Positions 3,084-18,202 of a stretch of DNA of 24,486 nucleotides are shown piece by piece. A program made the position numbers and the translations under genes. Every line of letters begins with the position of its first letter. Position 1 is the stretch's first letter. The notes beneath the pieces were generated by a model. The model was not told the DNA's origin and did not search any database. It was given only the letters and a program-made list of their open reading frames with translations. The DNA is from a virus, in the IMG/VR virus record IMGVR_UViG_3300017969_000140, positions 1-24,486 of that record, one strand, 5' to 3'.

Positions 3084-3740
3084 ATGCAACGATTAGATTT
3101 ATGGTTTGGCGGCAGTTATCCTGCTGGGACTAGTCTAGCAGAGACCGAAAGTAAGCCTAAAACGGTACAAACCAGAACACTTTTCAAAGCATTTTCAAAC
3201 CAGACACAAAAACGCAATAGATTCCCCACACTGGTATCTGCACAAAGAAATCGAAACGTATTAAATTTTTCAAAACCAGCATCCAGTATAGGATTTGCTC
3301 TAAGCAAACTGTTAAAATATATAAAATCTGAGCACAACATACATAATGATGTAACAGCATTTTTGTGCACATTACCCATAGGCAGAACGCATTATTATGA
3401 CTCAGTAACTGAAAAAGATGTGGATTTCATGTTGTATCATTTACCAACCGAACAACAACAATGGGTAGCCAGGTCTGCACTCTATAATGATACAATTTTG
3501 TATAATGCATTTTATACCACTTGTGTGGCTCACAACATAAAATTATATATACTGCCCATTTATAGTCCACTAGAATTACATGCGCCAGAGAATATTATAC
3601 CAGAAAATACCTGTCTATTTTCACCAACAGACCCACTAACCATTACAGATAGAAATTTATTATGCAGAGATCGAGAACATCCTAACATTGAAGGTCATGC
3701 TTACATAGCCGATAAAATACTGAATGCTCTTGACAGATGA
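3084..3740 (+). CDS. SGNH/GDSL-hydrolase-like protein (copy 1)
   Basis: The gene encodes 218 residues with the two end motifs of the SGNH fold. A block-I-like FGGSYPAG (residues 8-15) places the candidate nucleophile at Ser11, and a block-V-like DREHPNIEGH (196-205) places Asp196 and His199 as partners. Block I has GGS instead of GDS. SGNH enzymes are usually esterases, acetylhydrolases or lipases on lipids or glycans; the substrate here is unknown. There is no signal peptide. It ends the first structural gene block, and the -35 of the next gene's promoter lies within its last 11 bases. It is one of five such proteins in the window. Confidence 0.7.
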   Translation: MQRLDLWFGGSYPAGTSLAETESKPKTVQTRTLFKAFSNQTQKRNRFPTLVSAQRNRNVLNFSKPASSIGFALSKLLKYIKSEHNIHNDVTAFLCTLPIGRTHYYDSVTEKDVDFMLYHLPTEQQQWVARSALYNDTILYNAFYTTCVAHNIKLYILPIYSPLELHAPENIIPENTCLFSPTDPLTITDRNLLCRDREHPNIEGHAYIADKILNALDR

Positions 3741-3758
3741 GCTAATTAGTTATAGAAT
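3730..3758 (+). promoter_or_regulatory. Sigma70-like promoter for the exonuclease gene
   Basis: TTGACA (3730-3735) is followed by a 17-base spacer and TAGAAT (3753-3758), five of six bases of the -10 consensus. The predicted start is about 3765, giving a short leader with an AAAGG ribosome site before the ATG at 3782. Confidence 0.7.
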
Positions 3759-3781: not shown

Positions 3782-4450
3782 ATGATTGTTAACAAATACA
3801 ACTATCCTAATTTAAAACGTGTGCAAACACCAGCAGGCAGACAATATGTTGGTGAGGATCAAAATCCTGTACCCAGTGTTACAACCATACTGGACAAAAC
3901 AGCAGACAAGACGCATTTAATTGCATGGCGTAAACGTGTAGGAGACGCAGAAGCAACACGTATCGCAACAGAAAGTGCCAATTGGGGTACAAAAGTACAC
4001 AACAGCCTAGAAAAGTACGTCTTGGGCGAGGAATACGTTGTACAGGGCAATAACTTAATACAACATATGGCTCGTACAGCGGTTGATAACATGATACAAA
4101 ACGGTTTAAGCCAAGTTGACGAAGTGTATGGGGTAGAAGTAGGCCTGATTGCACAGGGTTTATACGCAGGTACATCAGATGCTATTGGTGTGTTTAACGG
4201 TACTGAAAGCGTAATTGACTTCAAAACTGCTAAAAAAATTAAGAAGCGTGAATGGATTGAAGATTATTTCCTACAAGGTTGTGCATACGCACTAGCACAC
4301 AACGAAATGTTTGGTTCTGACATCAGACAGGTAGCGATACTCATGGTGGACAGAGAAGGCAAATATGCTGACTTTGTGATTGAGGGAGATGAGTTTGATA
4401 GTTACTGCGAAAAATGGGGAGAGCGGGTAACGCAATTCTACTCTACCTAA
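3782..4450 (+). CDS. PD-(D/E)XK exonuclease (MGME1/RecB-like)
   Basis: The gene encodes 222 residues with the arrangement of MGME1-type and RecB-like nucleases. PSVTTIL (31-37) is followed by GTKVHNSLEKYV (69-80). The metal-site residues come next: Glu119 in VEVGL, Asp133 in GTSDAIG, and Asp146/Lys148 in VIDFKTAK. A helix with the QxxxYA-type pattern (LQGCAYALA, 164-172) completes the core. Such enzymes degrade or trim DNA ends during phage replication and recombination or host DNA breakdown. The gene has its own sigma70-like promoter between two virion-type genes, consistent with early expression. Confidence 0.85.
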   Translation: MIVNKYNYPNLKRVQTPAGRQYVGEDQNPVPSVTTILDKTADKTHLIAWRKRVGDAEATRIATESANWGTKVHNSLEKYVLGEEYVVQGNNLIQHMARTAVDNMIQNGLSQVDEVYGVEVGLIAQGLYAGTSDAIGVFNGTESVIDFKTAKKIKKREWIEDYFLQGCAYALAHNEMFGSDIRQVAILMVDREGKYADFVIEGDEFDSYCEKWGERVTQFYST

Positions 4451-4454
4451 ATCA

Positions 4455-4462
4455 GATAAATA
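4455..4462 (+). promoter_or_regulatory. T4-late-type promoter octamer GATAAATA
   Basis: GATAAATA sits five bases after the exonuclease stop and runs directly into the hairpin at 4461-4491. Transcription begun 6-8 bases downstream would start within the 5' arm of that hairpin. Confidence 0.7.
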
Positions 4463-4491
4463 CTGTTATGTAAATTGGAGACATAACAGTG
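4461..4491 (+). promoter_or_regulatory. Perfect 10-bp start-codon hairpin with Shine-Dalgarno in the loop
   Basis: ACTGTTATGT (4462-4471) pairs without mismatch with ACATAACAGT (4481-4490). A T-G wobble (4461 with 4491) extends it, so the whole GTG start codon is in the stem. The nine-base loop ends in GGAG (4477-4480), 8 bases before the GTG. The 5' arm also contains ATG followed at once by TAA (4468-4473). Confidence 0.75.
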
Positions 4492-7400
4492 GCAGAACAT
4501 GAAAACGACAATATTATAGTTTCACGTATTCAACATAGACGTGGCCTAAAACAAGATTTACCACAACCGTTAAGACCTGGAGAACTAGGTTTAGCAACTG
4601 ATAGCCGCCAGGTTTATATTGGCGGTGATCCTCTTGATCCAAATGCCGCACCATACAATAACGTAAGTTATTTTGAAAACACGGTGGGTGCTAGAGATCA
4701 TACAATCAGTATTGCAAATAATAATATTATTGCATTCCAGGTACCGTATATTAAATTTGTACGAGGTGAATTTAACGGTATACAAACTGAAAAGAGTTGG
4801 GAACCTGCAGATGCTCGCAGTATCATATCAGCAAGCCAACAACCTTCTAAACAATACATGAGTAGCACATACTCTGTGTTTAGTCCTACACGTATCACAC
4901 CTTTTGAACACACGTTAAGTGCAGACTTGTTGTCCACTAGCATTACTGTTAATCTCCAAGGCAACGAGTTGAATAATGATTCAATGGGTTATATCAGAGT
5001 AGGTGATATAGTTTCTGGTACCGGTATCAGAACAGGTCAGCAGATTGTAGTTACTGAAGTTACTAAAAACACTTCCACAGGAGTTATCACAGTAACTCTA
5101 AGTGAAGGCGGTCATACGGTTTCTGCTAATTCAAATATTACATTTACACCACGTAACATTGTAAACTTTGCTAGATATGATTTAGCTCAAGGACCTAGAA
5201 CTGCTGCGGCTTCTAACATCAAGATATCAGAAGGTGTATTTGTTAGCACAGATGTAACTGTTTGTAAAAATGGTATTAAATTAATACCTGAATCTAACTC
5301 TGCTATTGTTGATACTCCAAGTGCCACAGCAGATTACGTACTAGACGGCACAGACTTTAATAGTAATGGTACACATTATCTAACATTGAGAACCCGTCCT
5401 AGTACTAAAGATGAAGTAAGCATCTGTTATTACAGTAACTCAAATGTGATCCAGGCAATAGAAGGAATCAGCACAGGTAAAATTTCTTCCACTAGCACAG
5501 TGGACAGTTTCTATAGTGCATATAACATTCATCCATCAAGACATATACCTAAGGAAAATATCAGAGTTAACGGTTCCACAGGTTTGGGGTATATTGGTTT
5601 ACAAAACAAGCACATTGTTGCATCAGCACACGGTGCAAATATGTCTGCAACATCAGGATTGGTATTAGGAAATTTATTAGTTTCCAGAACTGATGATATT
5701 GACTCAGTAAGTTCATTTGTACGAAGTGATGACAGTGCATCTAGCACAGAGTATACCGGCACAGTATCATCAGGAGACGATATTTACAGCCCTGTATCAG
5801 AGTCTAACCGCGGTGTTTACAGATATAACAGAGTATGGACAACTCAAACAGCAGGAAGTTGGTTTCATAATAAACTATTTGATGTCGAAGTTGCTCCTGG
5901 TAGTGGTGCTATTACTATTGCATTAACTGGTCAAGACTTTCAAATTAACCGAAATGCATCCGCCAATTTGAGTACAACTGATATAACTTCAGGTTTTACT
6001 AATGATGGTAATGCAGCCACCACAAGGACTGTGATCAAATTCTCTTGTGATGAAATAGATGATGTAAGAGTAAATGATTACGTAAGAATTTTAGACGCTA
6101 CTGGTGATCCTGCAAACTGTGAATTACACGGTTCAATCTTTAAAGTTAGCAGTTTAGAGACCAATGCATTTGTAGTGGACTTATCCACAGCAGCAGATTG
6201 TGGTAATTCCTTACCAACCTTTACTGCAAACATTTCCTCATTGTACTATTTGAATCATGGTGATTTAGGTAATGTAAATACCACAGCACAATTTAGAAGT
6301 GTTAATCATGAGTTAACTAGTGATGTTGCAAATATTAAAATAACTGAAGCCAGTAATAGTCATTTGGCTGCAAGTGAAGTTTATAGTGTATATAACAGAG
6401 TTAATGCTAGTAACACTTTTTTCGCCACCGGAAATCCAGGTACCTTAATTGATGTAAATAACACAATGTCAGCATCAACTAATGTGGGCGAATTCCATCC
6501 ATCATTAGCGGCTTCCTATACTAATATAAAATTTACTCCAGTTCTAGCAATAGATCTATCAGGTGTAAGCACATTAAAAGAAGTTGTATCCACAGTAAAC
6601 AAATCATTAGTTAATATACCAGCACAAGATGGCAACAATGATGTACAAATATTTCCATTAATGGACTATCTGGAGCAAGATGATGGAACCAAGAATGCAG
6701 TATACATTACACAAAAACCAGCCTATGCTAGTGTTGCAGTGGGTGGTATTCCGTTTAGACTGACTGAAGATTCCAGATCAACATTAAGCACACTGGGCTT
6801 AAATGCTGGTGTATATGATCGTAATTCCAGTGTTAGAGCAAAATTAGAGCAGTGGTTAAACGATATGGTTGTGCACCGTGATGTTAATTTGTTTACTAAT
6901 GTACTGCTGGGTGGCACAGCATATAATTCTAATGCAAGTGCGATTAATAATTTATCAACCTATAATTTAACAATCGACGACACTTTTGGTGAAATTATTT
7001 TTGGTGATCGCGAAGAGGCGGCAAATTATAATTATGTAACAAATAGTGCCTATGCAGAATCCGCTTACGACAGAGCTTCTGACAGCTTCGAAGGCACACG
7101 TGGCCTTATTAACTTAAAGAACAATTTAGAAATTCAGACACGTGATACAGCAAGTACTGGTGAAAAAATTGTGTCCTTTACCAGCACAGAAGGTACAACT
7201 ATTTTACAAAGTGATGTAGCAAGTGATGAAATAATAGGTGTTGATGTATCAGTTTATGATAGTTATGTTATAGAATACACTATCAGTGAAACTCCTTTAG
7301 GAAGTGCCAACAAATATATGCGTATGGGCACAATGACGATTCAGGGAAGACCAGACTTCACAGATACTGCCAATGCTGTGATTTTTAATGACAGATTTAG

Positions 7401-7599
7401 TAGTCACTGGGAAACTGGAAGTACTTCTGCTGTAGTTGAACCAAAGTTTACTGCTGCTGTTTCAGGAAACAGAGTTGTAGTAAGTATGGAAAATCAACTG
7501 TCCGACCCTACTAATCCGTTGAGCAGTCAAATTGTGCATTCACTTGGTAATAACTTAAAGTTGAAATATGTTATTAGACGCTGGTCAAGTACAGAATAA
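4489..7599 (+). CDS. Large tail-fibre or baseplate structural protein with Mtd-N-like start
   Basis: The gene encodes 1036 residues from a GTG start placed 8 bases after GGAG. Residues 11-46 (VSRIQHRRGLKQDLPQPLRP, then GELGLATDSRQVYIGG) match the IxxRRG...LxxGELGxxTDxxxxxIG pattern of the N-terminal domain seen in Mtd and many fibre or baseplate proteins. The rest is beta-rich and Ser/Thr/Asn-rich with little charge clustering, as in fibre shafts and receptor-binding parts. I could not delimit repeats, and no catalytic motif was seen. The late-type promoter and hairpin leader fit late structural expression. Fibre versus baseplate placement is undecided. Confidence 0.8.
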   Translation: MAEHENDNIIVSRIQHRRGLKQDLPQPLRPGELGLATDSRQVYIGGDPLDPNAAPYNNVSYFENTVGARDHTISIANNNIIAFQVPYIKFVRGEFNGIQTEKSWEPADARSIISASQQPSKQYMSSTYSVFSPTRITPFEHTLSADLLSTSITVNLQGNELNNDSMGYIRVGDIVSGTGIRTGQQIVVTEVTKNTSTGVITVTLSEGGHTVSANSNITFTPRNIVNFARYDLAQGPRTAAASNIKISEGVFVSTDVTVCKNGIKLIPESNSAIVDTPSATADYVLDGTDFNSNGTHYLTLRTRPSTKDEVSICYYSNSNVIQAIEGISTGKISSTSTVDSFYSAYNIHPSRHIPKENIRVNGSTGLGYIGLQNKHIVASAHGANMSATSGLVLGNLLVSRTDDIDSVSSFVRSDDSASSTEYTGTVSSGDDIYSPVSESNRGVYRYNRVWTTQTAGSWFHNKLFDVEVAPGSGAITIALTGQDFQINRNASANLSTTDITSGFTNDGNAATTRTVIKFSCDEIDDVRVNDYVRILDATGDPANCELHGSIFKVSSLETNAFVVDLSTAADCGNSLPTFTANISSLYYLNHGDLGNVNTTAQFRSVNHELTSDVANIKITEASNSHLAASEVYSVYNRVNASNTFFATGNPGTLIDVNNTMSASTNVGEFHPSLAASYTNIKFTPVLAIDLSGVSTLKEVVSTVNKSLVNIPAQDGNNDVQIFPLMDYLEQDDGTKNAVYITQKPAYASVAVGGIPFRLTEDSRSTLSTLGLNAGVYDRNSSVRAKLEQWLNDMVVHRDVNLFTNVLLGGTAYNSNASAINNLSTYNLTIDDTFGEIIFGDREEAANYNYVTNSAYAESAYDRASDSFEGTRGLINLKNNLEIQTRDTASTGEKIVSFTSTEGTTILQSDVASDEIIGVDVSVYDSYVIEYTISETPLGSANKYMRMGTMTIQGRPDFTDTANAVIFNDRFSSHWETGSTSAVVEPKFTAAVSGNRVVVSMENQLSDPTNPLSSQIVHSLGNNLKLKYVIRRWSSTE

Positions 7600-7605
7600 T
7601 TAAAC

Positions 7606-8040
7606 ATGTTTACTAGCACACAGGGCTCTTCTGATCGTCTGGCAGTCTGGCGAAAACTAAGACAAGACAACAATTCTGCAGAACTAGAAACCCTTCTGGA
7701 AAGTTTCTCTCAGATTAAGTTACTTCCCAGATATATTGATTTCTATACACCAAAAAGTTGGCCAAATGTATTTGATATTGTATCTGAGGGATACTTTTGT
7801 CAGAGCGGTGTATCGTTAGTCTTAGCGGCTACACTCTACCATAAAAAGATCATTAATACTGAGACTATACAATTTGACGCGATAAGTAACCATGTCAACG
7901 GAGTAGAAGGCTTAGTTATAGTTGATGGTGACGACTGCTATAATTTTTATCGTGACAGAGTTGTACCTGTATCCTACATGCGAAAAAACTCTGTCTGCTA
8001 TGCCTCTCACATTATAACAATAGATAAACTTTTTGATTGA
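7606..8040 (+). CDS. Hypothetical protein (144 aa) after the fibre-like gene
   Basis: The 144 residues begin seven bases after the fibre-like gene and have no clear Shine-Dalgarno, so translation may be coupled. Residues 1-40 look helical. The middle contains the distinctive stretch DFYTPKSWPNVFDIVSEGYF followed by CQSGVSLVLAATL, and the C-terminal half alternates strand and loop. There is no signal peptide or catalytic triad. The WPNVFDIV segment looks like a conserved core, and I believe similar proteins occur in marine T4-like phages, but I know no function. The nrdA promoter begins in its last codons. Confidence 0.7.
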   Translation: MFTSTQGSSDRLAVWRKLRQDNNSAELETLLESFSQIKLLPRYIDFYTPKSWPNVFDIVSEGYFCQSGVSLVLAATLYHKKIINTETIQFDAISNHVNGVEGLVIVDGDDCYNFYRDRVVPVSYMRKNSVCYASHIITIDKLFD

Positions 8041-8065
8041 CCGGATAAGTAGTATGTAGTATAAT
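8037..8065 (+). promoter_or_regulatory. Sigma70-like promoter for the nrd operon
   Basis: TTGACC (8037-8042) is followed by exactly 17 bases and a perfect TATAAT (8060-8065). The predicted start is about 8072, so the leader would be 12 bases to the ATG at 8084 or 30 bases to the ATG at 8102. Confidence 0.75.
8044..8051 (+). promoter_or_regulatory. Possible late-type octamer GATAAGTA inside the nrdA promoter spacer
   Basis: GATAAGTA differs from TATAAATA at two bases and lies within the spacer of the sigma70-like promoter. If used, nrdA would have nested early and late promoters. The same AAGTA variant occurs at 16341 and 20544. Confidence 0.35.
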
Positions 8066-17718: not shown

Positions 17719-17726
17719 CATAAATA
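17719..17726 (+). promoter_or_regulatory. T4-late-type promoter octamer CATAAATA
   Basis: CATAAATA ends five bases before the ATG of the A-type carrier gene, with no Shine-Dalgarno between. RNA begun here would be leaderless or nearly so. Confidence 0.55.
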
Positions 17727-17731
17727 CCAAT

Positions 17732-18097
17732 ATGCAAGTAGAAACTTTTAATCCTAATAGTGATTTGATCACCATCACAGAAAATGCTCAAGCTCACTTC
17801 CTTGCACAAACAGAAGAAGCAAAAGCATTGGGTGTGAAATTAAGATTGACTGGTGGTGGGTGTGCAGGGTTTATGTATGATTGGCAATTGATTGAAGATA
17901 TATCAGATATCAATCTTGCAGATTATACCAAAGAGTATACAGGATGGACTTTTTGGTTGGACACCCTCAGCAAACAGTATCTTGCTGGTAGCACCGTGGA
18001 TCTAGTAAAAGGTGTCGCAGGACAGTATATAGAAATCAAAGCACCATTAGCGGATAGTGCGTGTGGTTGCGGTGAATCAGTCACTTTTTCCATCTAG
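17732..18097 (+). CDS. A-type Fe-S cluster carrier (IscA/ErpA/HesB family)
   Basis: The gene encodes 121 residues, close to the usual 105-120 of the family. The three conserved cysteines are present: Cys44 in LTGGGCAGFMYD, and Cys111 and Cys113 in SACGCGESVTF near the C-terminus. A-type carriers bind and hand on Fe-S clusters or iron to client proteins. IscA, ErpA and SufA cannot be told apart from this sequence. Together with IscU 4.4 kb upstream it gives the phage two steps of Fe-S biogenesis. It is not in the iscU operon: it has its own late-type octamer and follows a terminator. There is no visible ribosome site. Confidence 0.9.
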   Translation: MQVETFNPNSDLITITENAQAHFLAQTEEAKALGVKLRLTGGGCAGFMYDWQLIEDISDINLADYTKEYTGWTFWLDTLSKQYLAGSTVDLVKGVAGQYIEIKAPLADSACGCGESVTFSI

Positions 18098-18111: not shown

Positions 18112-18119
18112 TATAAATA
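18112..18119 (+). promoter_or_regulatory. T4-late-type promoter TATAAATA ahead of tRNA-Ala
   Basis: This is an exact match to the T4 late consensus. It ends seven bases before the first base of the mature tRNA, so transcription could start at or within about a base of the tRNA 5' end. Confidence 0.65.
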
Positions 18120-18126
18120 TCAAAAT

Positions 18127-18202
18127 GGGGCCGTAGCTCAGTTGGGAGAGCGTCTGGTTTGCATCCAGAAGGTCGCAGGTTCGACCCCTGTCGGCTCCAC
18201 CA
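18127..18202 (+). tRNA. tRNA-Ala (anticodon TGC)
   Basis: A full cloverleaf can be drawn. Acceptor GGGGCCG pairs with CGGCTCC (one G-T wobble). The D-arm is GCTC/GAGC. The anticodon stem TCTGG/CCAGA carries loop TTTGCAT with anticodon TGC at 18160-18162... (third loop base onward), and the T-arm GCAGG/CCTGT carries TTCGACC. Discriminator A and an encoded CCA (18200-18202) follow. It reads GCA and probably all GCN codons. Confidence 0.96.

Follow-up and report, generated by a model that had tools for sequence, protein, structure and literature searches.

Why does the start codon of a fibre-type structural gene lie within a hairpin whose 5' arm runs into a late promoter, and from which RNA would such a gene be translated? 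The question arises at positions 4455-4491 of the window, by which we mean the whole stretch of DNA analysed here, a 24.5-kb virus record (a 24-kb fragment). The features from the exonuclease promoter to the fibre-type gene are on the + strand.

The fibre-type gene and the hairpin over its start

The gene in question (4489..7599) starts with GTG at 4489-4491 and encodes a fibre or receptor-binding type structural protein of 1036 aa. An Mtd_N domain (PF18454) was found at residues 14-45 of the product (E 4e-6), and the N-terminus is held in common with a PA5oct protein annotated as structural from mass spectrometry, a match that spans about 7% of the protein. In view of the domain and the PA5oct annotation, "fibre-like", the name under which the initial annotation had listed this 1036-residue structural product, is a reasonable one. 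The protein belongs to no family in PHROGs, and a search for DNA near-matches among phages found none. Directly 5' of the fibre gene and co-directional with it is a 222-aa exonuclease gene (3782..4450; phrog_298 exonuclease, E 3e-55), and after four further bases the late-type octamer GATAAATA (4455..4462) begins. An Rfam search of the window returned two tRNAs and nothing else.

The initial annotation had described a perfect 10-bp inverted repeat with GGAG in a nine-base loop, the entire GTG in the 3' arm and one G-T wobble, and all of these elements were confirmed in the sequence. As read from the sequence, ACTGTTATGT (4462-4471) pairs with ACATAACAGT (4481-4490), and an 11th pair, a G-U wobble, joins T4461 to G4491. 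The 5' arm therefore occupies 4461..4471, most of it in what is predicted to be the untranscribed spacer between the octamer and +1; the 9-nt loop AAATTGGAG (4472..4480) contains the Shine-Dalgarno sequence GGAG (4477-4480), and the 3' arm (4481..4491) contains the whole start codon. The hairpin has a fold energy of -11.4 kcal/mol. The octamer had been placed next to the 5' arm, which is the right position, except that the two do not abut and instead overlap by 1-2 nt.

Because perfect 10-bp repeats with loops of 3-15 number 2 in the window and 0-4 in Markov simulations, the repeat by itself is weak evidence. Two other properties go beyond chance, judging from the sequences: the repeat sits on both the octamer and the start codon, and relatives have kept it, with changes in one arm compensated in the other. 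A reading of the repeat as an intrinsic terminator was rejected, as no terminator-like site was predicted at 4455-4491 and there is no T run 3' of the stem.

The late promoter and its predicted start site

GATAAATA is close to TATAAATA, is over-represented in the window (6 copies versus 1.5 expected) and lies upstream of genes, as a T4-type late promoter would. The late octamers of T4 span -13 to -6 (PMC2988020), and on that spacing +1 would be the A at 4468 (4468..4468). By sequence and T4 spacing, the promoter is placed such that late RNA from this predicted start would be without the 5' arm. The initial annotation had estimated the loss at about half of the arm; that part of the arm would be missing still holds, and T4 spacing changes the extent to 7 of the 11 pairs. 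In the window, late RNA from the predicted +1 would open with AUGUAA (4468-4473), a start codon followed immediately by a stop, and most relatives have AAG where the window has ATG at 4468. Elsewhere in the window, the late-type octamer TATAAATA ends 7 bases 5' of a tRNA gene at 18127-18199 (window 18112-18199).

The contigs of 12 relatives allowed the spacing to be calibrated within the lineage. At 136 of 603 NATAAATA sites, an ATG that opens an ORF had its A exactly on the predicted +1, compared to 23 sites where it was displaced by +1 base, 3 by +2 bases and 1 by -1 base. Four unrelated control octamers gave 0 or 1 ATGs at the predicted +1. The fifth, ATAAATAG, gave an ATG peak one base off, which is expected since it is a shifted part of the NATAAATA motif. 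This placement of ATG codons in the putative late genes supports a T4-type start spacing. Matches to a gp55-type sigma factor (phrog_12791) were obtained in relatives' contigs of 340 kb (E 2e-94) and 250 kb (E 5e-93), two of the three contigs larger than 200 kb that were searched; the factor was not found in the third, of 217 kb, nor in the contigs of smaller size; these are fragments, as is the window at 24 kb. A search for phrog_223 (gp45-type sliding clamp) gave no match in the relatives and none in the control genomes either.

Predicted opening of the start site in late RNA

Read-through RNA had been proposed to carry the closed hairpin and late RNA to be open, and folding of the two leaders agreed with the proposal. 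Freeing positions 4477-4495 at 37 C was predicted to cost 11.7 kcal/mol in read-through RNA but only 3.7 kcal/mol in RNA from 4468, and the probability that the GTG is unpaired at 37 C was 0.06-0.09 in read-through RNA compared to 0.31 in late RNA. In the closed form the GTG is buried while the Shine-Dalgarno sequence stays in the loop. Similar values were obtained for 49 leaders, in which the median cost of opening the start region was 9.1 kcal/mol for read-through RNA and 3.6 kcal/mol for late RNA. The median cost difference was 5.4 for the fibre leaders and 1.4 for the leaders of other late promoters in these phages (p 4e-9). The fold, the pairing probability of the GTG and the covariation described below all point to sequestration of the start in read-through RNA. 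Because a late RNA that began at 4463 would still have an opening cost of 8.6 kcal/mol, the predicted opening depends on the start site.

Taken together, what the sequences show (the anatomy, the conservation and covariation, where the promoter lies and what opening the start is predicted to cost) indicates that the inverted repeat very probably is an RNA hairpin under selection, through which the fibre-type gene could be translated from RNA of its own late promoter and from no other. RNA initiated upstream would carry both arms, with the GTG locked in the stem and the Shine-Dalgarno sequence in the loop, and ribosomes should initiate poorly on this closed form. RNA from the late promoter, which we infer to start at about 4468, would be without 7 of the 11 bases of the 5' arm, could not close the stem and would be translated.

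Read-through from upstream and what the hairpin would block

The exonuclease promoter that the initial annotation had located at 3730 is present, with the sigma-70 type sequence TTGACA-17-TAGAAT (3730..3758) and 11 of 12 consensus matches. It is the likely source of early RNA that would read into the fibre gene, and no terminator was predicted between the exonuclease and fibre genes. In relatives, sigma-70 scores of 11-12 of 12 were found in 22 of 46 distinct regions upstream of the exonuclease gene versus 2 of 920 shuffles. Another strong sigma-70 type site in the window, TTGACC-17-TATAAT (8037-8065; 11/12), lies just 5' of the gene for the large subunit of ribonucleotide reductase.

If the hairpin served to silence early RNA in particular, its strength might be expected to follow that of the early promoter. 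Hairpin strength and early promoter score were not correlated (rho -0.08, n=48), and the effect of the hairpin persisted where no promoter was recognisable just upstream of the exonuclease gene. Because of this lack of correlation, and because a minority of leaders have a weak hairpin or none, a block of any read-through fits better than a block of early RNA only. The likeness to the logic of T4 gene e, which the initial annotation had drawn, is supported by the geometry and the published mechanism, and less well for specificity to early RNA. We therefore state the function as translation from the gene's own promoter only, of which a block of early synthesis is likely a consequence.

It is possible, and we hold it only tentatively, that all read-through RNA is the target, including late RNA from an upstream structural operon, with the gene's own promoter setting the dose of fibre and the early block being incidental. 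Both of the promoter observations above favour this possibility, as does the presence of virion structural families among the genes upstream of the fibre gene. Against it, roughly half of the distinct lineages have a near-consensus early promoter immediately upstream (as scored in the adjacent region); moreover, its core mechanism is the same as that of the main reading, translation only from RNA of the gene's own promoter.

Conservation and covariation of the hairpin in relatives

Two scans of IMG/VR yielded 160 fibre loci, some on shared contigs, which together with the window make 161. At all 161 loci the octamer was present no more than 90 bases from the fibre start, and a hairpin covering the start was present in most of the distinct leaders. 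In two loci (L026/L028) an extra 0.5 kb separates the exonuclease and fibre genes, and the hairpin stays beside the fibre gene. Pairing was weak or shifted in the L050, L180, L194, L200, L203 and L037 groups. The cultured relative PA5oct has the octamer and the early promoter, and inspection found no matching hairpin over its start.

Arms that vary without compensation had been named by the initial annotation as a refuting result, and the opposite was seen. When 29 distinct leaders with a hairpin were compared, double changes filled 24 pair cells, compared to 6.9 ± 2.0 after shuffling, and none of 500 shuffles gave as many. Standard pairs filled 89.6% of pair cells; the shuffles gave 80.7 ± 1.1 and the slid registers 23-49%. 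The 89.6% is inflated, and the double changes less so, because the 29 leaders were picked as hairpin bearers. When 49 leaders were taken without selection for the hairpin, 0.80 of cells were paired compared to 0.689 ± 0.016, with a maximum of 0.748 in 2000 permutations. These shuffles take no account of kinship among the leaders. Parsimony on the fibre tree counted 17 pair-to-pair double changes versus 2 and 1 for slides of +1 and +2, respectively, but 14 for a slide of -1, so that the count is support rather than proof. The covariation makes the RNA structure credible. It is carried by the inner pairs, which change jointly on both sides; the outer A-T and C-G pairs hardly vary. The arms match even though loop length differs widely among leaders, and the loops have no conserved sequence apart from the Shine-Dalgarno.

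These patterns bear on three other explanations. A hairpin could act within the late mRNA itself, as a binding site for a repressor or a 5' stabiliser, and T4 has operators of that type, for example that of gp43 (PMC3014915). We consider this very unlikely here, because T4 spacing places the 5' arm in the untranscribed spacer, a start that ATG placement elsewhere supports, and because conservation in the loop is limited to the Shine-Dalgarno sequence. As the repeat shares bases with the octamer and the start region, it could be a DNA operator at which a dimeric regulator acts on the late promoter. This reading was rejected as very improbable: the wide variation in inter-arm spacing favours RNA over a DNA dyad, and the arms change while preserving pairing, G-U pairs included, and to a DNA-binding protein such variants would not be interchangeable. 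Least credible of all is that a conserved promoter start-site region (5' arm) and a conserved start-codon context (3' arm) match by chance or constraint, for although the outer A-T and C-G pairs are nearly invariant and repeats of this size arise by chance in the window, the inner pairs co-change beyond shuffles and slid registers, and most other late promoters lack a hairpin, strong promoter-start pairing occurring at 16 sites versus 2.1 expected (arms swapped), mostly in fibre orthologues.

Predicted leaderless starts and other late genes

In one clade of fibre leaders (L055, L057, L061-L071 and L078; the L055/L064 clade) the hairpin is replaced by GATAAATAGTTGT-ATG. The leader of this clade, GATAAATAGTTGTATGG, places the ATG exactly at the predicted +1 and thus has no leader, hairpin or Shine-Dalgarno sequence. 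The gene and the octamer are the same as in the window, and translation only from late-initiated RNA would also result; the means differ, in that neither hairpin nor Shine-Dalgarno sequence is present and the ATG sits at the predicted +1. That a leaderless start can stand in for the hairpin suggests that selection acts on the outcome, translation from the gene's own late RNA only.

The leaderless layout accounts for 23% of the NATAAATA sites in the relatives G001-G012 (the 136 of 603 sites given above); in T4 it was absent from all 43 sites present in 81 kb. In PA5oct, 8 of 16 octamer-ATG matches had leaderless spacing (no ORF filter was applied). The window itself has this layout at 126-141 and 17719-17734. 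We found no published description of leaderless mRNAs from T4-type late promoters in a literature search that was incomplete, and the widespread leaderless late layout may be a more novel result than the hairpin.

Similar hairpin leaders were found in some members of the class-3 lipase family, the SNase-like nuclease family and an unnamed family of 100 aa, few in all. In the late genes of the nuclease and lipase families concerned, a hairpin joins the promoter spacer to the Shine-Dalgarno sequence or the start (G001 89087 and G005 82335; G004 12485, G012 1630 and G006 37131 complement). A perfect GTGTATAG-GAGA-CTATACAC hairpin lies between the late octamer and the ATG of the unnamed 100-aa protein and is conserved in both large contigs (complement; G012 near 189432, G011 near 42345). 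A lineage-wide rule can be suggested with some reserve, as it is rather doubtful at present: late promoters would allow late proteins to be made only from their own RNA, by an ATG at +1 that is silent when internal to a longer RNA or by a 5' arm encoded in the spacer. The fibre gene would have switched between these designs, and the lipase, the SNase-like nuclease and other late genes would use variants of them.

Comparison with T4 and other known leaders

In the published account of T4 gene e, RNA started upstream folds and its translation is lower by about 100-fold, and the late RNA is without the 5' portion; further T4 cases of sequestered starts listed there are soc, 49 and I-TevI (PMC3014915). 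Inspection of the T4 gene e sequence showed that the octamer tail and spacer of its late promoter encode the 5' arm, as they do here, and that the 3' arm is GGTATT before the ATG. In both systems the translation start of RNA initiated upstream lies under a hairpin, and late RNA would be without the 5' arm. They differ in that T4 gene e encodes lysozyme and has two late promoters, whereas the gene described here encodes a fibre-type structural protein, has one late promoter, and holds its GTG start in the stem with the Shine-Dalgarno sequence in the loop. The phages also differ: those described here are uncultured, of jumbo type and not members of the T-even group. The leaders of T4 soc, gene 49 and I-TevI and of Aeh1 mobE likewise sequester the ribosome site in transcripts of the early or middle class, and the I-TevI structure has its 5' portion proximal to the late promoter (PMC3014915); these are other genes in other phages. 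Since the geometry of T4 gene e is identical, the fibre leader appears to be the same kind of control on another gene in another phage group. The timing trick of T4 lysozyme, which a few T4 genes are known to use, would thus be widely conserved on a fibre-type gene in uncultured jumbo-type phages.
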